64,000 bases of DNA from Cryobacterium frigoriphilum (GTDB taxonomy: Bacteria; Actinomycetota; Actinomycetes; Actinomycetales; Microbacteriaceae): NCBI RefSeq assembly GCF_004403305.1, contig NZ_SOHE01000060.1:125609-189608 (forward strand), read 5' to 3'. Of the stretch, positions 7,708 through 22,604 are shown in pieces (positions within the stretch are counted from its first letter, which is position 1; each line of letters opens with the position of its first letter). The translations under genes and the position numbers were made by a program. The notes under the pieces were generated by a model. The model worked only from the letters and a program-made list of their open reading frames with translations, was not told where the DNA came from and did not search any database.

Positions 7708-8775
7708 TCAGCGCAGCTGGATTGCCAGGTTACCGTCGGACTGGATCGTGACGCTCAAACCGATCACGAACGACACGTCCTCGTCGCGGGTGCTCTTGTC
7801 ACCATCGAAGAGTGACTGCACGTCGACCACGATGTGCGCGAGACCGGTGGTGGAGGCCATCTCGAACGAGGACTCGCCGGCCTCGAGCAGAACCGACGGG
7901 TACTGGGCGATCGACCAGACCGGCGCACTCAGCACCCGGTCGTTGATCGTGATGCCGAACGGGCAGTTCGAGGGCTGCAGCACCTGGTCGACGATGCACT
8001 TGTCGAGAAAACTGTTCAGTTCCGCCTGCACCTGGCCGGTGAAGGTCTCCGTCGGCATCGCGTTGATGGTCACGTCGGTGGCGCCCGAGGCGACCACCGG
8101 CACGCTCAGGGGCTCGGAGCTGAGCATGGTGGAGTCGTGCGCGAAGGAATACCGCATCGGAGCGAAGGCCAGGTAGGCGGCCTGCGTCGAGAAGGTGTCC
8201 GGGGCATCCGTCGCCGCGTGCGCCCGGGTATCGAGGTCGAGACCGTTCACCGTGAAGGCCCGTTCGTGCAGCACGGTCACCTGCAGCACGGCGAGCGGGC
8301 TGGTGGCGAACCGCCAGGCGGTGAAGACTCCGGCGAACGTTCCCGTGCTCTGCACCGTGAACTGCATGGTCGCGGCTTCACCGTCGAGAAGAAAATCGTA
8401 GACGACCGTGTGCAGGCCCGGTGACGTTTCGGTGTCGCTGATCTGTTCGAGATCGGTCAGGTCCCCGAGAACGGATGCGCGCAGCAGGGTCCGCGGAAGA
8501 TTCTGCGGCAGCGAGGCGGCTTCGAGGTCGTCGTTGCTCGGCACGACGCCGGGAAGCGCGAGCGCCCCCTCGGTGTCGTGGCGGGCGAGGGAGTCGAGGT
8601 ACCCGCCGACGAAACCGCCGGCGCTGTAGACGCCGCGGTTCAGGGCGGTGATGGCGGCCAGCAGCGCCCCGCCGAGCAGAACGGCGATGACGAAGACCGC
8701 GATCACGGTGCGCAGCGTGCGCGCACTGGTGCTGCGCAGAGCGCTCATTTGCGGTGGTCCGCCCCCGTTGGTCAC
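7708..8775 (-). CDS. Membrane-anchored protein of unknown function
   Basis: A 355-residue protein with one N-terminal membrane helix (about residues 22-45, TVIAVFVIAVLLGGALLAAI) and a long, presumably extracytoplasmic domain rich in Thr, Ser and Asp with two cysteines near residues 265-275. I do not recognise the family. The start is taken as the GTG at 8775 because TAAGCT lies exactly 6 nt upstream (leaderless pattern). An internal ATG at 8748 would remove nine residues. It is divergent from the helicase gene and convergent with CopD/CtaG. Confidence 0.75.
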   Translation of the reverse strand: MTNGGGPPQMSALRSTSARTLRTVIAVFVIAVLLGGALLAAITALNRGVYSAGGFVGGYLDSLARHDTEGALALPGVVPSNDDLEAASLPQNLPRTLLRASVLGDLTDLEQISDTETSPGLHTVVYDFLLDGEAATMQFTVQSTGTFAGVFTAWRFATSPLAVLQVTVLHERAFTVNGLDLDTRAHAATDAPDTFSTQAAYLAFAPMRYSFAHDSTMLSSEPLSVPVVASGATDVTINAMPTETFTGQVQAELNSFLDKCIVDQVLQPSNCPFGITINDRVLSAPVWSIAQYPSVLLEAGESSFEMASTTGLAHIVVDVQSLFDGDKSTRDEDVSFVIGLSVTIQSDGNLAIQLR

Positions 8776-8781
8776 TCCACC

Positions 8782-8787
8782 AGCTTA
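8782..8787 (-). promoter_or_regulatory. Leaderless -10 of the membrane-anchored protein gene
   Basis: On the minus strand TAAGCT lies 6 nt before the GTG at 8775. It faces TACAGT (8798-8803) on the plus strand, a possible -10 for the helicase side. Confidence 0.5.
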
Positions 8788-8812
8788 CGGGGGCGACTAC
8801 AGTGGGATATCC

Positions 8813-8863
8813 GTGCCGAGCCAAATCGCCCCCCACACCGTCCGAGTGAAAGTACCCCTGTGA
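8813..8863 (+). CDS. Possible 16-residue leader peptide upstream of the helicase
   Basis: A short open frame, GTG at 8813 to TGA at 8861-8863, encodes VPSQIAPHTVRVKVPL. Its stop overlaps the helicase GTG (GTGA), which would couple translation, and it begins 10 nt after a TACAGT -10-like hexamer. There is no ribosome binding site, and no homologue is known to me. It may be chance. Confidence 0.25.
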   Translation: MPSQIAPHTVRVKVPL

Positions 8864-10143
8864 CCGAGATTCCACTGTCGCGCGAGCAGGCCGAGGTCTA
8901 CGCGGCCATCGAGGGCACGAAACAGAACGTTTTCGTCACCGGGCGGGCCGGCACCGGCAAGTCCACGCTGCTGAACCACCTGTCGTGGAACACCAGCAAG
9001 CAGATCGTGATCGCCGCTCCGACCGGCGTCGCCGCCCTCAACGTGGGCGGGCAGACGATCCACTCCCTGTTCCGGCTGCCGATCGGGGTCATCGCCGACA
9101 GCCCGATCGTGCAGAACGATCAGGTACGCAAGCTGCTCAACACCATCGACACCCTCGTGATCGACGAGGTCTCCATGGTCAACGCCGATCTCATGGACGC
9201 GATCGATCGCAGCCTGCGGCAGGCCCGCCAGCGCCGGCACGAGGCGTTCGGCGGGGTGCAGATCGTGCTGTTCGGTGATCCGTACCAGCTGGCCCCGGTG
9301 CCGGGCGGCCCCGAGGAGCGCGCCTATTTTGCCGATCACTATCGGTCGATGTGGTTCTTCGACGCAACGGTCTGGCAGGGCGCCGACCTGCGTATTTTCG
9401 AGCTGACCGAAATTCACCGCCAGCGCGACAATGACTTCAAGGTGATGCTCAACGCCGTGCGGCACGGTCAGGTCACGCCGGAGATCGGCGGGGCACTCAA
9501 CGGCGCCGGCGCCCGCACCCCACCGACCGAGGGCGTGATCACGCTCGCGACCCGCAACGACTCGGTGAATCGTATTAACGCGGCGGCGCTGAAACGGCTG
9601 TCCGGCAAGTCCCTCACGGCCAAGGCCGAGGTCACCGGCGATTTCGGTGGACGCAACTTTCCGGCCGACGCGGAACTCGAGCTCAAGGTCGGCGCCCAGG
9701 TGATGTTTCTGCGCAACGACTCGCCGCTCGACGGGGGCCCGCGCTGGGTGAACGGCAGCGTGGGAACGGTCACCAAGGTCAAGGACACGGTGTTCGTCGA
9801 TATCGACGGGGACGAGCACGAGGTCGAGCCGGCGGTGTGGGAGAAGTACAAGTACACCTATAACGCGGCCACGAAGAAGCTCAGCCGCGATGTGGTGGCC
9901 GAATTCACCCAGTTTCCGCTGCGCCTCGCGTGGGCGGTCACGATTCACAAGTCGCAGGGGGCCACCTACGAGCGCGCGATCGTGGATCTCGGCACCCGGG
10001 TCTTCAGCCCCGGCCAGACCTATGTGGCGTTGAGCCGGCTGACCAGTCTCGAGGGTCTGTACCTGACGCGGCCGCTGCGGCCGAGCGACATCATCGTCGA
10101 CGAGAACGTCATCCGCTTCATGACGGTGCTGCCGACGGCGTAG
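8860..10143 (+). CDS. Pif1/RecD-like superfamily 1 DNA helicase
   Basis: A 427-residue SF1 ATP-dependent helicase. Visible motifs are Walker A VTGRAGTGKSTLL (about residues 24-36), Walker B LVIDEVSMVNADL (about 100-112), motif III FGDPYQLAPV, TEIHRQRDNDF (motif IV region), and C-terminal WAVTIHKSQGATYERA and TYVALSRLTSLEGLYL (motifs V and VI). This is the compact AAA_30/Pif1-like form without the RecD N-terminal region. The GTG at 8860 starts the conserved block; open frame further upstream lies antisense to the neighbouring gene. The role in DNA repair or recombination is inferred from the family. Confidence 0.85.
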   Translation: MTEIPLSREQAEVYAAIEGTKQNVFVTGRAGTGKSTLLNHLSWNTSKQIVIAAPTGVAALNVGGQTIHSLFRLPIGVIADSPIVQNDQVRKLLNTIDTLVIDEVSMVNADLMDAIDRSLRQARQRRHEAFGGVQIVLFGDPYQLAPVPGGPEERAYFADHYRSMWFFDATVWQGADLRIFELTEIHRQRDNDFKVMLNAVRHGQVTPEIGGALNGAGARTPPTEGVITLATRNDSVNRINAAALKRLSGKSLTAKAEVTGDFGGRNFPADAELELKVGAQVMFLRNDSPLDGGPRWVNGSVGTVTKVKDTVFVDIDGDEHEVEPAVWEKYKYTYNAATKKLSRDVVAEFTQFPLRLAWAVTIHKSQGATYERAIVDLGTRVFSPGQTYVALSRLTSLEGLYLTRPLRPSDIIVDENVIRFMTVLPTA

Positions 10144-10912: not shown

Positions 10913-11323
10913 TTAGACGCTGGCTTTGGCGTTCACGTTCTTGTCTGCGGTCAGGCCGACTCCGAGCAGCACGATGGCGCTGGCCAGGTGCAGGAAGTGG
11001 TCCGCCGTGTTCAGGGCAAGGATGTTCAGGGCCGAGTCCGCGATGAAGAAACCGAGGAGTCCGAGGAGCAGGTAAACCGCTCCGACGGTGGTATTGACGG
11101 CCTTCGCAGCGGATGCGCTGGAGAGTCCGGCAATCAGCAGGGCCGCACCGATGAGCAGGTGGGCGACGTTGTGCAGCGGGTTGACCTCGAAGATTCCGAG
11201 TAGCAGTCCGCCCTCGGTGGCGATGAAGCCGACTCCGCCGGTGACGGCGAATCCGAGCAGTCCGACGAGCACGTACACGGCGCCGAAGACGGTGCCGATC
11301 AGACGGTTGGGTGAAGTGCGCAT
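10913..11323 (-). CDS. DUF4383-like membrane protein
   Basis: A 136-residue protein with four hydrophobic helices. It matches the DUF4383 pattern: an N-terminal ...SPNRLIGTVFGAVYVLVG helix, a central NPLHNVAHLLIGAALLIAG segment with the family's conserved Asn/His pairs, and a repeated ADHFLHLASAIVLLG. Function unknown; members often sit with stress genes, as here. The ATG at 11323 follows ACAGGAGGCACCAGCA, a strong ribosome binding site. It is downstream of, and separated by 274 nt from, the GlsB gene. Confidence 0.8.
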   Translation of the reverse strand: MRTSPNRLIGTVFGAVYVLVGLLGFAVTGGVGFIATEGGLLLGIFEVNPLHNVAHLLIGAALLIAGLSSASAAKAVNTTVGAVYLLLGLLGFFIADSALNILALNTADHFLHLASAIVLLGVGLTADKNVNAKASV

Positions 11324-11597: not shown

Positions 11598-11861
11598 TCA
11601 GGCCGTCTTGCGTCGGCTGACCGCGCCGTAGATGAGCAGCACGATCAGTGATCCGGCGATGGCAAGCAACCACGTCGAGATCGAGAAGAACTCATTGAGG
11701 TTGACGTTGAAGAGCAGACCGCCGAGAAAGCCGCCGAGCAGCGCGCCAACGACGCCGAGCAGCAGCGTGATGAACCAGCCGCCGCCCTGTTTGCCGGGCA
11801 GAATCGCCTTTGCAATGGCTCCTGCGATCAGGCCGAGAAGAAGAAATCCGAAAAAGCCCAT
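11598..11861 (-). CDS. GlsB/YeaQ/YmgE-family stress membrane protein
   Basis: An 87-residue protein with three hydrophobic helices and the family's glycine-rich pattern (LLLGLIAGAIAKAILPGKQG, then GVVGALLGGFLGGLLF), typical of transglycosylase-associated/GlsB stress proteins. The ATG at 11861 follows AAAGGAACACCCC; longer frames upstream run into csbD and are not used. It sits 58 nt after csbD at the distal end of the Asp23 operon, which fits the known grouping of Gls24 and GlsB. Confidence 0.85.
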   Translation of the reverse strand: MGFFGFLLLGLIAGAIAKAILPGKQGGGWFITLLLGVVGALLGGFLGGLLFNVNLNEFFSISTWLLAIAGSLIVLLIYGAVSRRKTA

Positions 11862-11919
11862 GGGGTGTTCCTTTCTGTGGGGGACAAAGCGGTGCTGGTG
11901 CAGAGCGAGAGTGACCGCG

Positions 11920-12105
11920 CTACTCCTTGAAGGTGTCCTTGGCGGCATCCTTCACGTTCTCGCCGGCCTTCTTGACGTGGGCGCCGGCCTGATCGCCCTT
12001 GCCCTCAGCGACCAACGAATCGTCATTGGTGGTCTTGCCCAGCGCTTCCTTGGCCTTGCCGGTGAGGTCCTGCGCGGCGTTGCGAATCTTGTCTGATGCA
12101 CTCAT
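11920..12105 (-). CDS. CsbD-family stress protein
   Basis: A 61-residue hydrophilic protein with the CsbD pattern (DKIRNAAQDLTGKAKEALGK, then LVAEGKGDQAG). It is presumably cytosolic and largely helical or disordered. The ATG overlaps the AmaP-like gene's stop by 4 nt (ATGA) and has AAGGAG upstream inside that gene, so it is translationally coupled to the Asp23 operon. CsbD proteins are induced by general stress in other bacteria; the biochemical role is unknown. Confidence 0.85.
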   Translation of the reverse strand: MSASDKIRNAAQDLTGKAKEALGKTTNDDSLVAEGKGDQAGAHVKKAGENVKDAAKDTFKE

Positions 12106-12719
12106 GCGGTTGTTCTCCTTATGTGGGTTGGCCCTGCGAGGCGGCTGCGGAAGCCGCCGCCGATGTGCAGGAGCACGGGGATCTCAGTGCCGAGGACCCG
12201 GTCGAGGCCTCGAACGGATTGGTGCACTGCATCGATGACGTCACGCGGTGCCGTGCCGCGCCTCGCCACCACCGATACTTTGAGCATTGAAGCGCCATTT
12301 ACGCGATATGTCGAGGTGTGCAGGCCCAGAAAATCGCTCTGACCGGCCAGAGATTGTTCGAGTGCCTGTTCGGCGAAGGCCGCGTCGATGCGGGTGCGTC
12401 CCTGGTCGGTCTGCGGTGTGTTCACCAGCGTCCGGGTGCGCCCGCGCCCCTGCCGCACGGTGAAAGCCACCAGCGCCCCGATGAGCGCGGCCATGAGCGC
12501 CACGACTGCGACCCCGGCCCAGCTGTCGCCGGTCGCGGCCACGGGGATCGCTGACAGCAGTGTCTCGGTTTCGACGATCGCGAACGCCGCGCCCGACCGC
12601 CAGAGCTGCAGTGCGGCCGGAACGCTTGCGACGAGCGTTGCGCTCGATCCCGCGAGAAGCAACAGCAGTCCGCTGAACGCGAGCAGCAGCCGATTCAGGG
12701 CTCGGTTCGTGGTGGTCAC
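12102..12719 (-). CDS. AmaP-like alkaline-shock membrane anchor protein
   Basis: A 205-residue protein with two N-terminal membrane helices (about 10-35 and 65-90) followed by a cytoplasmic beta-alpha domain ending HIGGGFRSRL. In other Gram-positive bacteria AmaP anchors Asp23 to the membrane; the same layout and its place in an Asp23 operon support the call. The GTG start overlaps the preceding stop (GTGA) and its own stop overlaps csbD. Confidence 0.7.
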   Translation of the reverse strand: MTTTNRALNRLLLAFSGLLLLLAGSSATLVASVPAALQLWRSGAAFAIVETETLLSAIPVAATGDSWAGVAVVALMAALIGALVAFTVRQGRGRTRTLVNTPQTDQGRTRIDAAFAEQALEQSLAGQSDFLGLHTSTYRVNGASMLKVSVVARRGTAPRDVIDAVHQSVRGLDRVLGTEIPVLLHIGGGFRSRLAGPTHIRRTTA

Positions 12720-13321
12720 GAGCCGACTCGGCCCGTTGGGGCGACGAGGAGGCGGGGGCGGATGCTGGGCCGCGGCCCCACGCGTTCAAGCGCCGAGACG
12801 GCGGCCTCGGTGACCCGAGCCTCGTCGACGCGAATTCCCGAGGTTGGCGTCAGTCGAACCTGCGCGGATCGCCGACCGACCGTGACGCGCACCGCGTCGG
12901 GCGCGACGCCGGCGGCGATCGCTGCGCTGCGGGCGAGAGCGGATGCGATCACCTCGTCGTCGACCACCACGGCCAGCCGGTCGGTGGACAGGCCGTGCCT
13001 GGTGCGACGGCCGGGCAGCACCGCGGCGAGCAGCAGGAGCAGTCCGACAAGGGCCACCCCGATGCCAAGCGGGACCATGACCCGGCGCAGGTCGCTGGCC
13101 GGGGCTGCCGCCGTGCGTGCGGCATCCGTCGGCGAGAACAGCAGCGGGGCGCGGCCGAGGAGCTGCAGCACCATCTCGGTTCCCACGATCAGGCACACCA
13201 CGATGATGAGTAACGCGACCGTGATGGCGAGGCCGGATCGCGACGAGTGGGTTTCGCGCCGCAGCACCCGGCGGTCGCGCGCGGCCGGAGTCATGGCAGG
13301 TGTTGCGGGGGCGGTCTTCAC
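12716..13321 (-). CDS. DUF6286-like membrane protein of the Asp23 operon
   Basis: A 201-residue protein: a basic N terminus, one membrane helix near 33-55 (AITVALLIIVVCLIVGTEMV), a second near 85-105, then a C-terminal domain (about 115-190) that resembles the Asp23-like fold of the neighbouring proteins. It begins with GTG overlapping the previous stop. The role is inferred from its position only: a membrane component of the Asp23 complex. Confidence 0.65.
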   Translation of the reverse strand: MKTAPATPAMTPAARDRRVLRRETHSSRSGLAITVALLIIVVCLIVGTEMVLQLLGRAPLLFSPTDAARTAAAPASDLRRVMVPLGIGVALVGLLLLLAAVLPGRRTRHGLSTDRLAVVVDDEVIASALARSAAIAAGVAPDAVRVTVGRRSAQVRLTPTSGIRVDEARVTEAAVSALERVGPRPSIRPRLLVAPTGRVGS

Positions 13322-13683
13322 AGCAGTCTCCGCCCCTCGGGGTTGATGGTGGCGCCGCTGACCTGGACGATGACGTGGGCAACGTCGGTGCCGGTGAGGC
13401 GGCCGGTTTCGAGTCGGATGTGTTGCCGGGCGCGTTCGGTGCGCTGCAGAACCGTGCCGTCGGAGTGCGGGTCAGGCCACGATCGCGTCGCGGACAGCGA
13501 GGTGATGCCGATCGGGGCCCGCACGTGCACGGCCAGCCGGCCGGCGGCATCCGTCAGCCCGACCGTCACCTGGTCGGCCGAGACCGTCAGGGCCTCGGCG
13601 CTCAGCACCCTGATGAGCCGGGTCAGGGCTCGCGACGTGATGTGGGTGCGGCCGCGCAGGTCGCTCGCGGTCACGGCGGTCAC
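13318..13683 (-). CDS. Small Asp23-operon protein, unknown
   Basis: A 121-residue protein beginning VTAVTASDLRGRTHITSRAL. It has no membrane helix and predominantly beta/alpha character. The phrase HITSRALTRLIRVLSAEAL followed by VTVGLTDAAGRLAVHVRAPI resembles a degenerate Asp23-type domain. The GTG at 13683 is chosen because it overlaps the upstream stop by 4 nt, like every other junction in this operon; longer frames upstream are excluded by the neighbouring gene. No specific function recognised. Confidence 0.6.
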   Translation of the reverse strand: MTAVTASDLRGRTHITSRALTRLIRVLSAEALTVSADQVTVGLTDAAGRLAVHVRAPIGITSLSATRSWPDPHSDGTVLQRTERARQHIRLETGRLTGTDVAHVIVQVSGATINPEGRRLL

Positions 13684-13883
13684 GATGAACTGCGCTTGCC
13701 TCGAAATGCGTCGACGAGCGCCGTGACATCCAGGCGTCCGTCGACGACGCGTCCGACGAGGCCGCCGATGAGCATGAAGAGGGCAACGAAGGCGCACGCC
13801 CAGAACCCCAGCACGGCCCAGGTCAGCGCCAGGGTGCCGCCGATCACGATGCCGAGCACCGTCATGGTGTGCGGCGGCGTCAT
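13680..13883 (-). CDS. DUF2273-like small membrane protein
   Basis: A 67-residue protein with two hydrophobic helices (IVIGGTLALTWAVLGFWACA and FVALFMLIGGLVGRVVDG) and a basic C-terminal tail. This is the size and layout of the DUF2273 small integral membrane proteins that accompany Asp23 genes. It overlaps the genes on both sides by 4 nt. Confidence 0.7.
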   Translation of the reverse strand: MTPPHTMTVLGIVIGGTLALTWAVLGFWACAFVALFMLIGGLVGRVVDGRLDVTALVDAFRGKRSSS

Positions 13884-14317
13884 TGGACCCGTGCCTCTGC
13901 GGGGTCGGTGCTGTCGTCGTCGCTCGGGATGTGCACATCGTTCACGGTCACGTTGACCTCGGTGACCTGCATGCCGACGAGGCTTTCGATCGCGGTGATG
14001 ACGGCGAAGCGCACGTCGTCGGCGACCTTTTGCAGCTCGATCGGGTATTCGGCGACCAGGGAGATGTCGACGGCCACCTGGGTTTCACCGACCTCGACGC
14101 TGACGCCCTGAGACAGATCGGTTGAGCTGATCGCATTGCGGATGGCACCGAGGGCCCGAGCGGCGCCCCCGCCGAGCGCGTAGACGCCGGTGACTTCGCG
14201 CGCCGCGATGCCGGCGATCTTGGAGACCACGCTGTCGTGGATGACGGTCTTTCCGGTGCCCGCCCCGATCTCGGAGGTGGTGCTTGAAGCGAGGGCGGTG
14301 GGCTCGGTGCTGGCCAT
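13880..14317 (-). CDS. Asp23/Gls24 family envelope stress protein
   Basis: A 145-residue protein with a full Asp23 domain (about residues 25-130): TVIHDSVVSKIAGIAAREV, GVYALGGG, QVAVDISLVAEYPIELQKVA and VTEVNVTVNDVHIP are the family's hallmark segments. It is thought to act at the inner face of the membrane in cell-envelope stress. It is the first gene of a coupled minus-strand chain reaching csbD. The ATG at 14317 has AAGGAG 8 nt upstream; a longer frame to 14368 lacks one. It is divergent from the ECF sigma gene across 126 nt. Confidence 0.88.
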   Translation of the reverse strand: MASTEPTALASSTTSEIGAGTGKTVIHDSVVSKIAGIAAREVTGVYALGGGAARALGAIRNAISSTDLSQGVSVEVGETQVAVDISLVAEYPIELQKVADDVRFAVITAIESLVGMQVTEVNVTVNDVHIPSDDDSTDPAEARVQ

Positions 14318-14443
14318 GAGGGCTCCTTGGGTCGGTCGTGGCGTGGCTGGCAAATCGGAAGGGACCATGGCATAGTCACTTCGGATGGTTACAAGTGAGA
14401 CGTGTCGTCACCCTGATTCGTCACGCAACTGGGTCAACAATTA
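14318..14443. promoter_or_regulatory. Divergent promoter region of the Asp23 / ECF sigma locus
   Basis: This 126-nt gap must hold promoters for both directions. It contains two direct CGTCAC copies (14406-14411 and 14419-14424, 13 nt apart) and a GGTTAC-like element. No clear housekeeping -10 pair is seen, which would fit control by the locus's own sigma factor, but no promoter can be assigned from sequence alone. Confidence 0.35.
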
Positions 14444-15061
14444 GTGAACGGCACCCGAATGTCCCTGTCTGATCGCTCCGTTCCGCGGCCGCTCGACCCC
14501 CCGGGATCCCTGCCGCGCTCGCTCGACAACGCACCCGACGGGATCCTCGCCAGTCGGGCGGCGGATGGCGATCCGCGCGCCTTCGAAGTGCTGGTGCGGC
14601 GCCATGGCCCGTTGATGCGCGCCTACGCCACCCGCATGATGGGCGGCACGAGCGAGTCGGATGACATCGTGCAGGAGAGCTTCATCGTCGCGTGGGAACA
14701 ATTGCCCACGCTGAAAGACGGCAATTCCGTTCGAGCCTGGCTGATGCGCATTGCGAGCCGCAAGGCGATTGACCGCATCCGCTTGCGTAAGAACGACGAG
14801 CCCCTGCACGACTGGGATGCGGAGGCCCCGACATCGCAGTCTCCGGCGCACCGCGTGGAGGTCGCGTCGCAGCGAGAGCGGCTCACCCAGGCGTTGGCCG
14901 GTTTGACGCCGACGCAGCGACAGAGTTGGCTGTTGCGTGAGGTTGGCGGGCACAGCTACGAGGAGATCGGTGAGCAGCTGAGCATTCCGCCGTCGACGGT
15001 TCGTGGGCTCTTGGCCCGGGCCAGGCGCAAACTGGTAGAGGAAATGGAGGGCTGGCGATGA
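14444..15061 (+). CDS. ECF-type sigma-70 family RNA polymerase sigma factor
   Basis: A 205-residue alternative sigma factor. Region 2 is at about 40-110 (FEVLVRRHGPLMRAYATRMM, DDIVQESFIVAWEQLP, IASRKAIDRIR) and region 4 at about 150-200 (LAGLTPTQRQSWLLREVGG, SYEEIGEQLSIPPSTVRGLL helix-turn-helix). The start is uncertain: GTG 14444 or ATG 14459; neither has a clear ribosome binding site. Its stop overlaps the next gene (ATGA), an arrangement usual for a sigma factor and its regulator. It faces the Asp23 operon, which it may transcribe; this is inference. Confidence 0.9.
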   Translation: MNGTRMSLSDRSVPRPLDPPGSLPRSLDNAPDGILASRAADGDPRAFEVLVRRHGPLMRAYATRMMGGTSESDDIVQESFIVAWEQLPTLKDGNSVRAWLMRIASRKAIDRIRLRKNDEPLHDWDAEAPTSQSPAHRVEVASQRERLTQALAGLTPTQRQSWLLREVGGHSYEEIGEQLSIPPSTVRGLLARARRKLVEEMEGWR

Positions 15062-15690
15062 CGAGCTCAGACGACACTCCCGACCGCTCCGTTGACCGCT
15101 CCGGCTCCGAACCCGAGGTGACCAACGATTCGGGTGACCTCATCGAGGTGCTCAACGACTATCTTGACCGCGGTGAAGATCCGCCTCGGGAACTGCTCGA
15201 CGGTTCGCCGGATCATCAGCTGACCCTCGACGCGCTGGTGCGGTTTCGTCGGTTGACGAGGGAGCTGCTGGCCGACGACGTGGCCGCAGAACCCGCTCGC
15301 GATGACGGATGGGTCGCCACGATTCTCGCGAATATCCACAGTGAGTCGCGGGCCGGGCGATCGATTCCGTTGGCGCATCCGTCATCGATCGCCGATTTGA
15401 GCATCTCGGAGGGGGCCGTTCGCGGCCTCGTGCGGGCGGCCGGCGACGCGGTCTCGGGAACCCTGATCGGCGCCTGCCGGCTCGAGGGTGACGTGACGGA
15501 GCCGGGCTCGCCGATCACCGTGGCCGTCGAGGCGAGCGTGTTCTGGGGCGAACGCATCCGAGCGACCGCTGATCACATTCGAACGGCGATCGAGTCGGCG
15601 CTGCTGTTGCACACGGAACTCAACATTGTGGCCGTTGATGTGACCGTCACCGACGTGCACCTGCGGCGCACGGGACAGGAGAACAGCTGA
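15058..15690 (+). CDS. Asp23-like domain protein with N-terminal extension, candidate sigma regulator
   Basis: A 210-residue soluble protein. The N-terminal 85 residues (DLIEVLNDYLDRGEDPPREL, then a helical VRFRRLTRELLADDV) look like the cytosolic part of an anti-sigma or zinc-less HC2-type protein. The C-terminal half (about 110-205) resembles Asp23: ISEGAVRGLVRAAGDAVSG, PITVAVEASVFWGERI, LNIVAVDVTVTDVHL. It has no membrane helix. It occupies the anti-sigma position, overlapping the sigma gene by 4 nt, and shares one base with the next start. The proposed role of sensing Asp23 status and restraining the sigma factor is inference. Confidence 0.65.
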   Translation: MTSSDDTPDRSVDRSGSEPEVTNDSGDLIEVLNDYLDRGEDPPRELLDGSPDHQLTLDALVRFRRLTRELLADDVAAEPARDDGWVATILANIHSESRAGRSIPLAHPSSIADLSISEGAVRGLVRAAGDAVSGTLIGACRLEGDVTEPGSPITVAVEASVFWGERIRATADHIRTAIESALLLHTELNIVAVDVTVTDVHLRRTGQENS

Positions 15691-16028
15691 TGCCCGGCGA
15701 ATCGGTGCCGCAGGAACTCGTAGAGAATCTCGGCCGGATCGTGCGCGAGATCGACGGGGTCACCGACCTGTATGACGCGCGGCCGACGCCGGTCGCTGCG
15801 GTGACGAGCGTCGCGATGCGGCTCACCGGGCGTGGCGCCCCTGAACCGGTGGTGGTCTCGTCGTCGGGTGACGGCCTGACCATCTGGGTGAGCCTCGCCG
15901 TGAGTGAGAATCACCCGGCCGCGGACACCTGTCGACGGGTGTTTGACGTGGTTCACGACTTCGTGGCCGCGCACGTGCCGGAGGACACGCTGCGCACGGT
16001 GAGGATCCGTGTCAGTCGCATCGGGTAG
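15690..16028 (+). CDS. Small Asp23-like protein
   Basis: A 112-residue soluble protein with a pattern of alternating beta and helix (TSVAMRLTGRG, LTIWVSLAVSENHPAADTCR, LRTVRIRVSRIG) like the Asp23 fold. It starts one base inside the preceding stop (TGATG), so it is the third gene of the sigma operon. No specific function recognised. Confidence 0.6.
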   Translation: MPGESVPQELVENLGRIVREIDGVTDLYDARPTPVAAVTSVAMRLTGRGAPEPVVVSSSGDGLTIWVSLAVSENHPAADTCRRVFDVVHDFVAAHVPEDTLRTVRIRVSRIG

Positions 16029-21778: not shown

Positions 21779-21863
21779 AAAATTCGTGAAACTTTTTTCG
21801 TGACGATGTGCCTGCTTTGTGCGTCTTAGTGGAATCCAGAGAAAATTTCACGAAGGGAGCACC

Positions 21864-22604
21864 ATGTCCAACACCTACACCCCCCACTCTGCGCCTCCCG
21901 GGGACAGCGCGGATACCTCGCCTCGCGAGCAGGCGGCCCGTGTCGGCGGTGAGGCCGCAGCTGCCGGTCACCACGTCGCCGATGTCTCGAAAGACGAAGC
22001 GCATCGGGTGGCCTCCGAGGCTAAGAAACAGGCCTCCGATGTGCTCGCCGAGGCCCGCACCCAGCTCAGCGACCAGGCCGCCCAGCAACAGGCCCGCGTG
22101 GCCTCCGGCCTGCGCTCGATCAGCGACGAGCTGACCGGCATGGTCCGCTCGTCCGCCGACAACGGGGAGAGCGGCGTCGCCAGCGACCTCGTGCAGCAGG
22201 CCGCCCGGCGAGCCGGCACCGCCGCCAGCTGGCTCGATGCCCGCGACCCGGGTTCTTTGTTGCAGGAAGTGCGCACGTTCGCCCGACGCAAACCAGGAAC
22301 GTTCATTGCCCTCGCAGCAGCCGCAGGCGTGCTCGCCGGTCGTCTGACCCGCTCGGTCGTGAGCAGCAACGACGCCGGCGACTCCGGCAGTGCGGGGGCG
22401 CATCACGACACGACGCGTGACGCTGTGCGCTCGGCGCAGCAGCCGGCCGGCACCCTCGGTGCGGCAGGCCTTGGCACCAGCGGCCTTGGCACCAGCGGGC
22501 GCGGCGCCGACGACCTCAGCGCTGATCCCGACTTTCAGCGCGGCGACGGCCAGAGCACCGGCACCGCTTATCGCGGTGTCGATGGCCTGGGCAGCGACCG
22601 ATGA
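21864..22604 (+). CDS. Ala/Ser-rich helical protein with a membrane segment (envelope cluster)
   Basis: A 246-residue low-complexity protein. The N-terminal 120 residues are Ala/Gln/Glu-rich helix (SDQAAQQQARVASGLRSISD), a weak hydrophobic segment (TFIALAAAAGVLAGRLTRSV) lies near 150-170, and the C terminus has a GLGTSGLGTSGRG repeat. It resembles the unnamed first protein that precedes holin-like and DUF3618 proteins in actinobacteria. The ATG at 21864 has AAGGGAG upstream. It overlaps the next gene by 4 nt. A 9-bp inverted repeat (TTCGTGAAA at 21783-21791, TTTCACGAA at 21846-21854) spans its leader and touches the ribosome binding site. Confidence 0.65.
   Translation: MSNTYTPHSAPPGDSADTSPREQAARVGGEAAAAGHHVADVSKDEAHRVASEAKKQASDVLAEARTQLSDQAAQQQARVASGLRSISDELTGMVRSSADNGESGVASDLVQQAARRAGTAASWLDARDPGSLLQEVRTFARRKPGTFIALAAAAGVLAGRLTRSVVSSNDAGDSGSAGAHHDTTRDAVRSAQQPAGTLGAAGLGTSGLGTSGRGADDLSADPDFQRGDGQSTGTAYRGVDGLGSDR

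Follow-up and report, generated by a model that had tools for sequence, protein, structure and literature searches.

A 64,000-nucleotide stretch of the Cryobacterium frigoriphilum genome (contig NZ_SOHE01000060.1, positions 125,609 to 189,608; hereafter the window) carries, between positions 11598 and 16028, an operon headed by an Asp23 gene and, divergent from it, the gene for an extracytoplasmic function (ECF) sigma factor followed by two genes whose products we label AspB and AspC. We consider it likely that these genes form a regulated Asp23 module in which the ECF sigma factor would drive the Asp23 operon, AspB would hold the sigma factor as its anti-sigma factor, and the Asp23 domain of AspB would serve as the input. 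The features of the module are as follows:

11598-11861, minus strand: GlsB / Transgly_assoc membrane protein (PF04226, 2.2e-9, above cut-off)
11920-12105, minus strand: CsbD-like protein (PF05532, 1.3e-14, above cut-off)
12102-12719, minus strand: membrane protein related to the DUF6286 protein, a candidate AmaP analogue (hhalign against the DUF6286 protein, E 9.7e-5)
12716-13321, minus strand: DUF6286 membrane protein (PF19803, 2.5e-10, above cut-off)
13318-13683, minus strand, GTG start: second Asp23-domain protein of the operon (profile-profile against Asp23, E 2.4e-7)
13680-13883, minus strand: DUF2273 small membrane protein (PF10031, 9.4e-7, above cut-off)
13880-14317, minus strand: Asp23, first gene of the operon (PF03780, 1e-24; 87.5 bits against a cut-off of 28, scanned from the longer start at 14368)
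14399-14424, minus strand: predicted sigma-dependent promoter ahead of the Asp23 operon, GTGAC, 17 nt, CGTC (conserved upstream of Asp23 at a single spacing)
14444-15061, plus strand: ECF sigma factor, regions 2 and 4 (Pfam Sigma70_r2 8.7e-17, Sigma70_r4_2 1e-14)
15058-15690, plus strand: AspB, predicted soluble anti-sigma factor with a zinc-less ZAS-type N-terminus (about residues 23-98) and an Asp23 domain (about 114-200) (profile matches; model m6a3003ffdcb9)
15690-16028, plus strand: AspC, a small protein with an Asp23 domain, encoded third in the sigma operon (profile-profile against Asp23, E 1.6e-6)

The six minus-strand genes from Asp23 to CsbD are joined by five overlaps of 4 nt, and GlsB follows after 58 nt; on the plus strand the sigma factor and AspB genes overlap by 4 nt and the AspB and AspC genes by 1 nt. 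The original prediction, made from the sequence alone, had described this chained operon and a divergent ECF sigma gene with two Asp23-like genes coupled to it, and the overlaps together with the Pfam and profile matches bear out both descriptions. Its labels Asp23, DUF2273, DUF6286, CsbD and GlsB all pass Pfam cut-offs. We place the Asp23 start at the ATG at 14317, which has AAGGAG ahead of it; a longer start at 14368 is possible. One label is not confirmed: the 12102-12719 product had been called AmaP-like, and it has no family match below E 0.09 in Pfam or NCBIfam, its detectable kin being the neighboring DUF6286 protein. The AmaP model NF033218 does not match it, gives the DUF6286 protein 21.4 of the 55 bits needed, and has its cut-off passed by none of the ten proteins scanned. 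Comparison of either of these two membrane proteins with Asp23 by hhalign was not significant.

Regions 2 and 4 of the sigma factor lie at residues 50-115 and 144-197, both above the Pfam cut-off; no region 3 model was found in the Pfam scan, which makes this an ECF sigma factor, and its closest solved structures are also ECF sigma factors (best CnrH, 6.1e-17). As had been predicted, the module encodes four Asp23-domain proteins, because the 13318-13683 product (previously left without a family), the AspB C-terminus and AspC all match the Asp23 profile. The profile-profile scores were 62.1 for the AspB C-terminus (E 3.6e-11), 42.3 for the 13318-13683 product and 37.3 for AspC, compared with a maximum of 17.6 in ten permutations of each. 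In direct family scans the 13318-13683 product matches nothing in Pfam or NCBIfam, AspC matches no Pfam family, and AspB reaches 24.8 bits against Pfam Asp23, below the cut-off of 28; among ten AspB orthologues scanned, L038, L047, L054 and L076 pass it. The Asp23 domain also dominates a fold search with the whole AspB model, where the best rows are MamM C-terminal domains (Z 10.9); this match carries no information on function.

Conservation was followed in three sets of loci: a family set of 61 (the window plus 60 of 67 other places, the seven weakest being left out), a named set of the best 80 of 165 AspB relatives (Microbacteriaceae genera, a few unplaced Actinomycetales bins and Promicromonospora), and a class set of 20 stretches chosen from the better matches of a class-wide AspB search. 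The family and named sets overlap and have some contigs in common. Among those best 80 of 165, the closest named relatives are from Cryobacterium, with C. melibiosiphilum at 80% over AspB, and the AspB tree agrees. A sigma factor gene lies just upstream of AspB, with a profile gap below 400 bp, at 61/61 family, 80/80 named and 19/20 class loci; at the twentieth class locus it is 420 bp away. The fetched stretch includes an Asp23 gene at 46 of the 61 family, 76 of the 80 named and 18 of the 20 class loci. In these sets the gene points away from the sigma operon at 37, 39 and 11 loci and in the same direction at 9, 37 and 7. Because it recurs in so many genomes, this layout is not a product of chance. 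GlsB is a loose member of the module, since few loci have it (5/61, 20/80 and 2/20, in the same order). Separately, the Cryobacterium loci L094-L099 and L101 have Asp23, the sigma factor and AspB, yet none of the DUF2273, AmaP-like and AspC profiles finds a match there; by this measure those modules are reduced or diverged.

All three sets were found through AspB and so cannot show that the sigma factor needs AspB, for which presence and absence across genomes is a fairer test. In a single draw of 150 family genomes, used for both proteins, AspB was detected in 54 genomes and Asp23 in 52, each of the latter having a best Asp23 match of E 2.5e-22 or lower. Every one of the 52 also has AspB, and 96 genomes have neither (Fisher test 1.9e-38, uncorrected for kinship); of the two with AspB alone, one has a weak match with stops (G066) and one a clear match (G084). 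Three genera (g6, g17 and g22) each contain one genome with both proteins and one with neither, which speaks against shared descent as the sole cause. Of 41 genomes sampled from the genus, 35 have AspB. The original prediction had proposed checking whether the sigma factor and the Asp23 operon co-occur, and by both the sigma-AspB synteny and the 52 Asp23 genomes the two halves are conserved together.

A two-part promoter motif also ties the sigma factor to the operon. Word enumeration upstream of Asp23 gave GTGAC-N17-CGTC in 99 of 142 regions, with 8 for the best word in one shuffle (the motif shuffles keep base content only). The spacing of 17 occurs in 93 of 139 distinct 250-bp regions, and the remaining spacings between 8 and 29 are each found in 0 to 8; in the window the motif lies about 80 nt ahead of the Asp23 start. 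The 46 regions that fail the strict motif comprise 14 from distant loci and 32 others, and in 25 of these 32 the motif keeps its spacing with a single base altered, CGAC replacing CGTC in 16 (a count without a control). The strict motif is also found within 400 bp of 15 of 30 Asp23 genes away from sigma loci, in a search that tried only spacing 17; these genes were hand-chosen at about 7 kb or more from the sigma loci, and two of the 15 positives are near-copies. A sister form, GT[GC]A[CG]-N16-[TG]GTC, is present in 7 of 14 distant regions compared with a maximum of 3 in 200 shuffles, a weaker control than that for the main motif because the form was read by eye off the same 14 regions; enumeration of 4+4-letter words in the distant loci gave nothing above shuffles. 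By sequence comparison, dedicated transcription of the Asp23 operon by this sigma factor, as originally suggested, is well supported, because the synteny is conserved, the two genes are present or absent together, and the motif stands at a fixed spacing before linked and unlinked Asp23 genes. No sigma-70 promoter was found by consensus between 11300 and 16500.

We also considered whether the sigma operon is as a rule autoregulated through the same motif, and rejected this: the forward motif occurs in only 5 of 161 sigma-upstream regions, and the signal seen ahead of sigma genes is the divergent Asp23 promoter read backwards.

The sigma factor and AspB could be a genuine pair and yet have their real targets elsewhere, with another sigma factor reading GTGAC-N17-CGTC. 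Every Asp23 genome among the 150 has AspB, so that the motif was never seen without it, which leaves room for this view, as do the matches in the window's own genome. There, 101 places fit the loose motif compared with 26 for its reversal, and 19 fit GTGACGWWN14CGTC compared with 1 for the reversal. At six of 18 sites examined (L263 was left out) a start with a ribosome-site-like sequence follows 26-260 nt downstream, and a recognizable gene stands behind two of the 18, one being the Asp23 operon and the other an operon at 21864. A wide regulon was considered and rejected, since four of the six (L242, L255, L261 and L265) lie against or within long GC-rich frames and were judged spurious. The second recognizable site is

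21800-21825, plus strand: possible second target promoter, GTGACG, 16 nt, CGTC, preceding the operon that starts at 21864

and that operon, which runs on the plus strand to 24568, encodes a protein without a Pfam match, a Holin-X protein (PF07332), a DUF3618 protein and a BrkB-type membrane protein. Among 17 other loci of the genus, the site is in the same place in G443 only. Fifteen of the 17 have no strict match before the corresponding operon, one of these, G452, having a match one base off at -898; in G441, which has no AspB, an unrelated match lies at -251. In the family the site is absent from all 23 oriented loci of 29, three more being not oriented and three antisense. The 21864 operon is thus possibly a local target. 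Its site is kept in a single close relative. The motif accompanies linked Asp23 genes and roughly half of the unlinked ones, and we regard a different reader for the motif as improbable. The original prediction had named control of unrelated genes as the outcome that would overturn it; looked for by motif only, such control is not borne out. As a side observation, some 4 kb separate the Holin-X gene and the AspB locus in G078, G453, G457 and G475.

AspB itself would be more than a further Asp23 protein. In the AlphaFold model its N-terminal part forms helices at residues 24-38, 44-47, 51-77 and 84-98, followed by an alpha-beta C-terminal domain, and the N-terminus folded alone gives the same helices. 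ZAS anti-sigma factors (RsrA, ChrR and their kin) have a helical N-terminal domain and are encoded behind an ECF gene. A 161-row alignment of the AspB N-terminus matches 30 domains of zf-HC2 (PF13490), which we take to be a family of zinc-type anti-sigma domains, with an hhalign score of 31.1 (E 4.4e-5); these domains were taken by Pfam membership, one per family genome. Thirty column permutations reached at most 15.1 and the reversed alignment 12.8. Moreover, the HxxxCxxC motif is found in 18 of the 161 AspB rows, namely at 16 of 20 class loci and at the family loci L069 and L077, and a cysteine precedes it in every printed row. It is also carried by L222 in its correct frame, a wrong frame having stood in the 161-row count; the three class loci without it, L218-L220, come from the same family as the window. 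A tree built from 151 different AspB rows, with L222 left out, has one branch that parts the 133 without the motif from the 18 with it (support 99/84; recovered in 98% of 200 bootstrap trees; not one of 500 shuffles reached so low a value). The tree has no fixed root, and a single loss of the zinc ligands toward the window's lineage would be its simplest reading. L069 and L077, together with L057 and L083, whose AspB keeps CxxC alone, are possible intermediates of the loss within the family.

From these comparisons AspB is very probably a soluble anti-sigma factor of the adjacent ECF sigma factor; because its N-terminus is of the anti-sigma type, it is probably a regulator and not one more stress protein. 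The module reading in the original prediction stood as regards dedicated transcription; it had taken the 15058-15690 product as plainly Asp23-like and missed this N-terminus. AspB might instead be a structural Asp23 protein, with AspC and AspB as co-expressed cargo and the sigma factor set by its own expression level. AspB does have an Asp23 domain, no family library finds an anti-sigma domain in it, and two of its three relatives on plasmids (NZ_CP012477.1 of Arthrobacter, NZ_CP043651.1 of Frigoribacterium and NZ_CP121273.1 of Microbacterium) are annotated as an Asp23/Gls24 family envelope stress response protein, the third as hypothetical; the relative on NZ_CP012477.1 adjoins an annotated sigma factor. 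However, the N-terminus is conserved together with the Asp23 part, its zf-HC2 match is far above permuted controls, and distant orthologues carry HxxxCxxC. In addition, the AspB and sigma genes overlap, and the two stay together at the 15 of 61 family loci whose fetched stretch contains no Asp23 gene. On this evidence, we find it hard to credit that AspB is cargo.

Several results nonetheless speak against a sigma/anti-sigma module. The window AspB lacks the HxxxCxxC zinc ligands, and neither Pfam nor the other family library detects an anti-sigma domain in it. Even zinc-type orthologues stay below threshold: zf-HC2 reaches E 0.077 in one of ten scanned, and NCBIfam antisigma models E 0.0072 and 0.025 in two of seven. 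When the 57 close rows are used alone (the narrower alignment A4), the zf-HC2 match weakens to E 0.027, which is expected if the window's clade has drifted. For the N-terminal model, the best Foldseek match reached no lower than E 5.5; the anti-sigma factor RseA (1or7_C) ranked second for this model at Z 3.2, too low for meaning. A PDB profile search with alignment A1 returned a designed repeat protein (E 0.035) as its sole match. On the promoter side, half of the Asp23 genes away from a sigma locus have no strict motif, only one of 14 distant regions does (L221), and the lack of any Asp23-positive genome without AspB among the 150 means that the motif was seen only with the pair present. Finally, according to the part of PMC9769785 available to us, ethanol shock in Streptomyces venezuelae is followed by a fall, and not a rise, in an Asp23/Gls24 gene. 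Because of this fall, the plain reading that stress induces the module is not secured.

We still favor a sigma/anti-sigma switch, for which we can offer a rough mechanism. The ECF sigma factor would transcribe the divergent operon (asp23, DUF2273, asp23-like, DUF6286, membrane protein, csbD) through GTGAC-N17-CGTC. AspB, made from the overlapping frame, would hold the sigma factor by its helical, ZAS-descended domain, whose zinc ligands have apparently been lost in this lineage. Its Asp23 domain likely senses or joins the Asp23 layer, by analogy with known Asp23 systems: most likely it would dock on the membrane-attached layer or on its anchors, and an altered layer would then change the grip on the sigma factor. 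Going by the Asp23 family, we infer that the signal would be envelope stress. Because the sigma gene as a rule lacks a motif of its own, its expression in divergent loci is probably steady, with AspB holding the product; where the Asp23 operon points the same way, transcription running on from that operon could provide positive feedback.

AspB may itself be part of the Asp23 layer, co-assembled with or capped by the anchored Asp23 polymer, so that the sigma factor would read the amount or integrity of the layer; zinc sensing would then have been dropped once, toward the Microbacteriaceae form, leaving the Asp23 domain as sole input. Flagellar FlgM is a precedent for a structural checkpoint, to which such a readout may be likened. 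We hold this fuller version to be possible and rather unlikely. A role for AspC, as an anti-anti-sigma or co-anti-sigma factor acting through Asp23-Asp23 pairing with AspB, would be compatible with the switch proposed above. AspC is an Asp23-domain protein and follows AspB at 58/61 family and 73/80 named loci, but at only 9/20 class loci, a shortfall that may be due in part to the family-built profile recognizing AspC poorly there; that AspC carries the signal seems doubtful to us.

Parts of the arrangement have parallels. According to the part of PMC8999054 available to us, the sigma genes of groups ECF286 and ECF292 adjoin soluble Asp23-family proteins that are predicted anti-sigma factors, and the paper leaves both groups aside for want of experimental data. 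In the window, too, the gene next to the ECF sigma gene encodes a soluble Asp23-family protein, and this pair is very likely of the same kind, an assignment made by gene neighborhood and not by group profile. In the literature searched, as far as its texts were available, PMC8999054 is alone in linking ECF sigma factors to Asp23 anti-sigma factors. Beyond the ECF286 and ECF292 account available to us, the present analysis traces the N-terminus to a zinc-type origin with later zinc loss, derives the promoter motif and points to the Asp23 operon as the target. Within the literature searched, which the ECF classification paper lies outside, the zinc-type origin and loss, the promoter with its unlinked copies and the module as a whole appear to be new, and a ZAS-Asp23 fusion is not described there. 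AspB has in common with the ZAS proteins a helical N-terminal domain encoded behind an ECF gene and, in distant orthologues, HxxxCxxC; unlike them, the window AspB has no zinc ligands, and its C-terminus is Asp23 and not a cupin or a membrane span. The asp23 operon of Staphylococcus aureus is a SigB operon. In the window an ECF sigma factor stands beside the operon instead, with four Asp23-domain proteins and, among the ten proteins scanned, none that passes the AmaP model. As in the S. aureus asp23-amaP operon described in the available part of PMC6954212, Asp23 is encoded with a small membrane protein. According to the same part of that source, staphylococcal Asp23 is membrane-bound through AmaP and forms filaments, and deleting either gene induces the cell-wall stress response (PMC6954212).

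Two further genes lie close to the module, a DUF4383 membrane protein (10913-11323, minus strand) on the same strand downstream of GlsB and a PIF1-like helicase (8578-10143, plus strand).

The molecular function of Asp23 was called unclear in 2020, in the part of PMC6954212 available to us. A switch that has an Asp23-domain protein as its brake and an Asp23 operon as its main target would provide a reporter for what Asp23 domains bind or sense, and a named promoter and a named sigma/AspB pair are now available for testing it.

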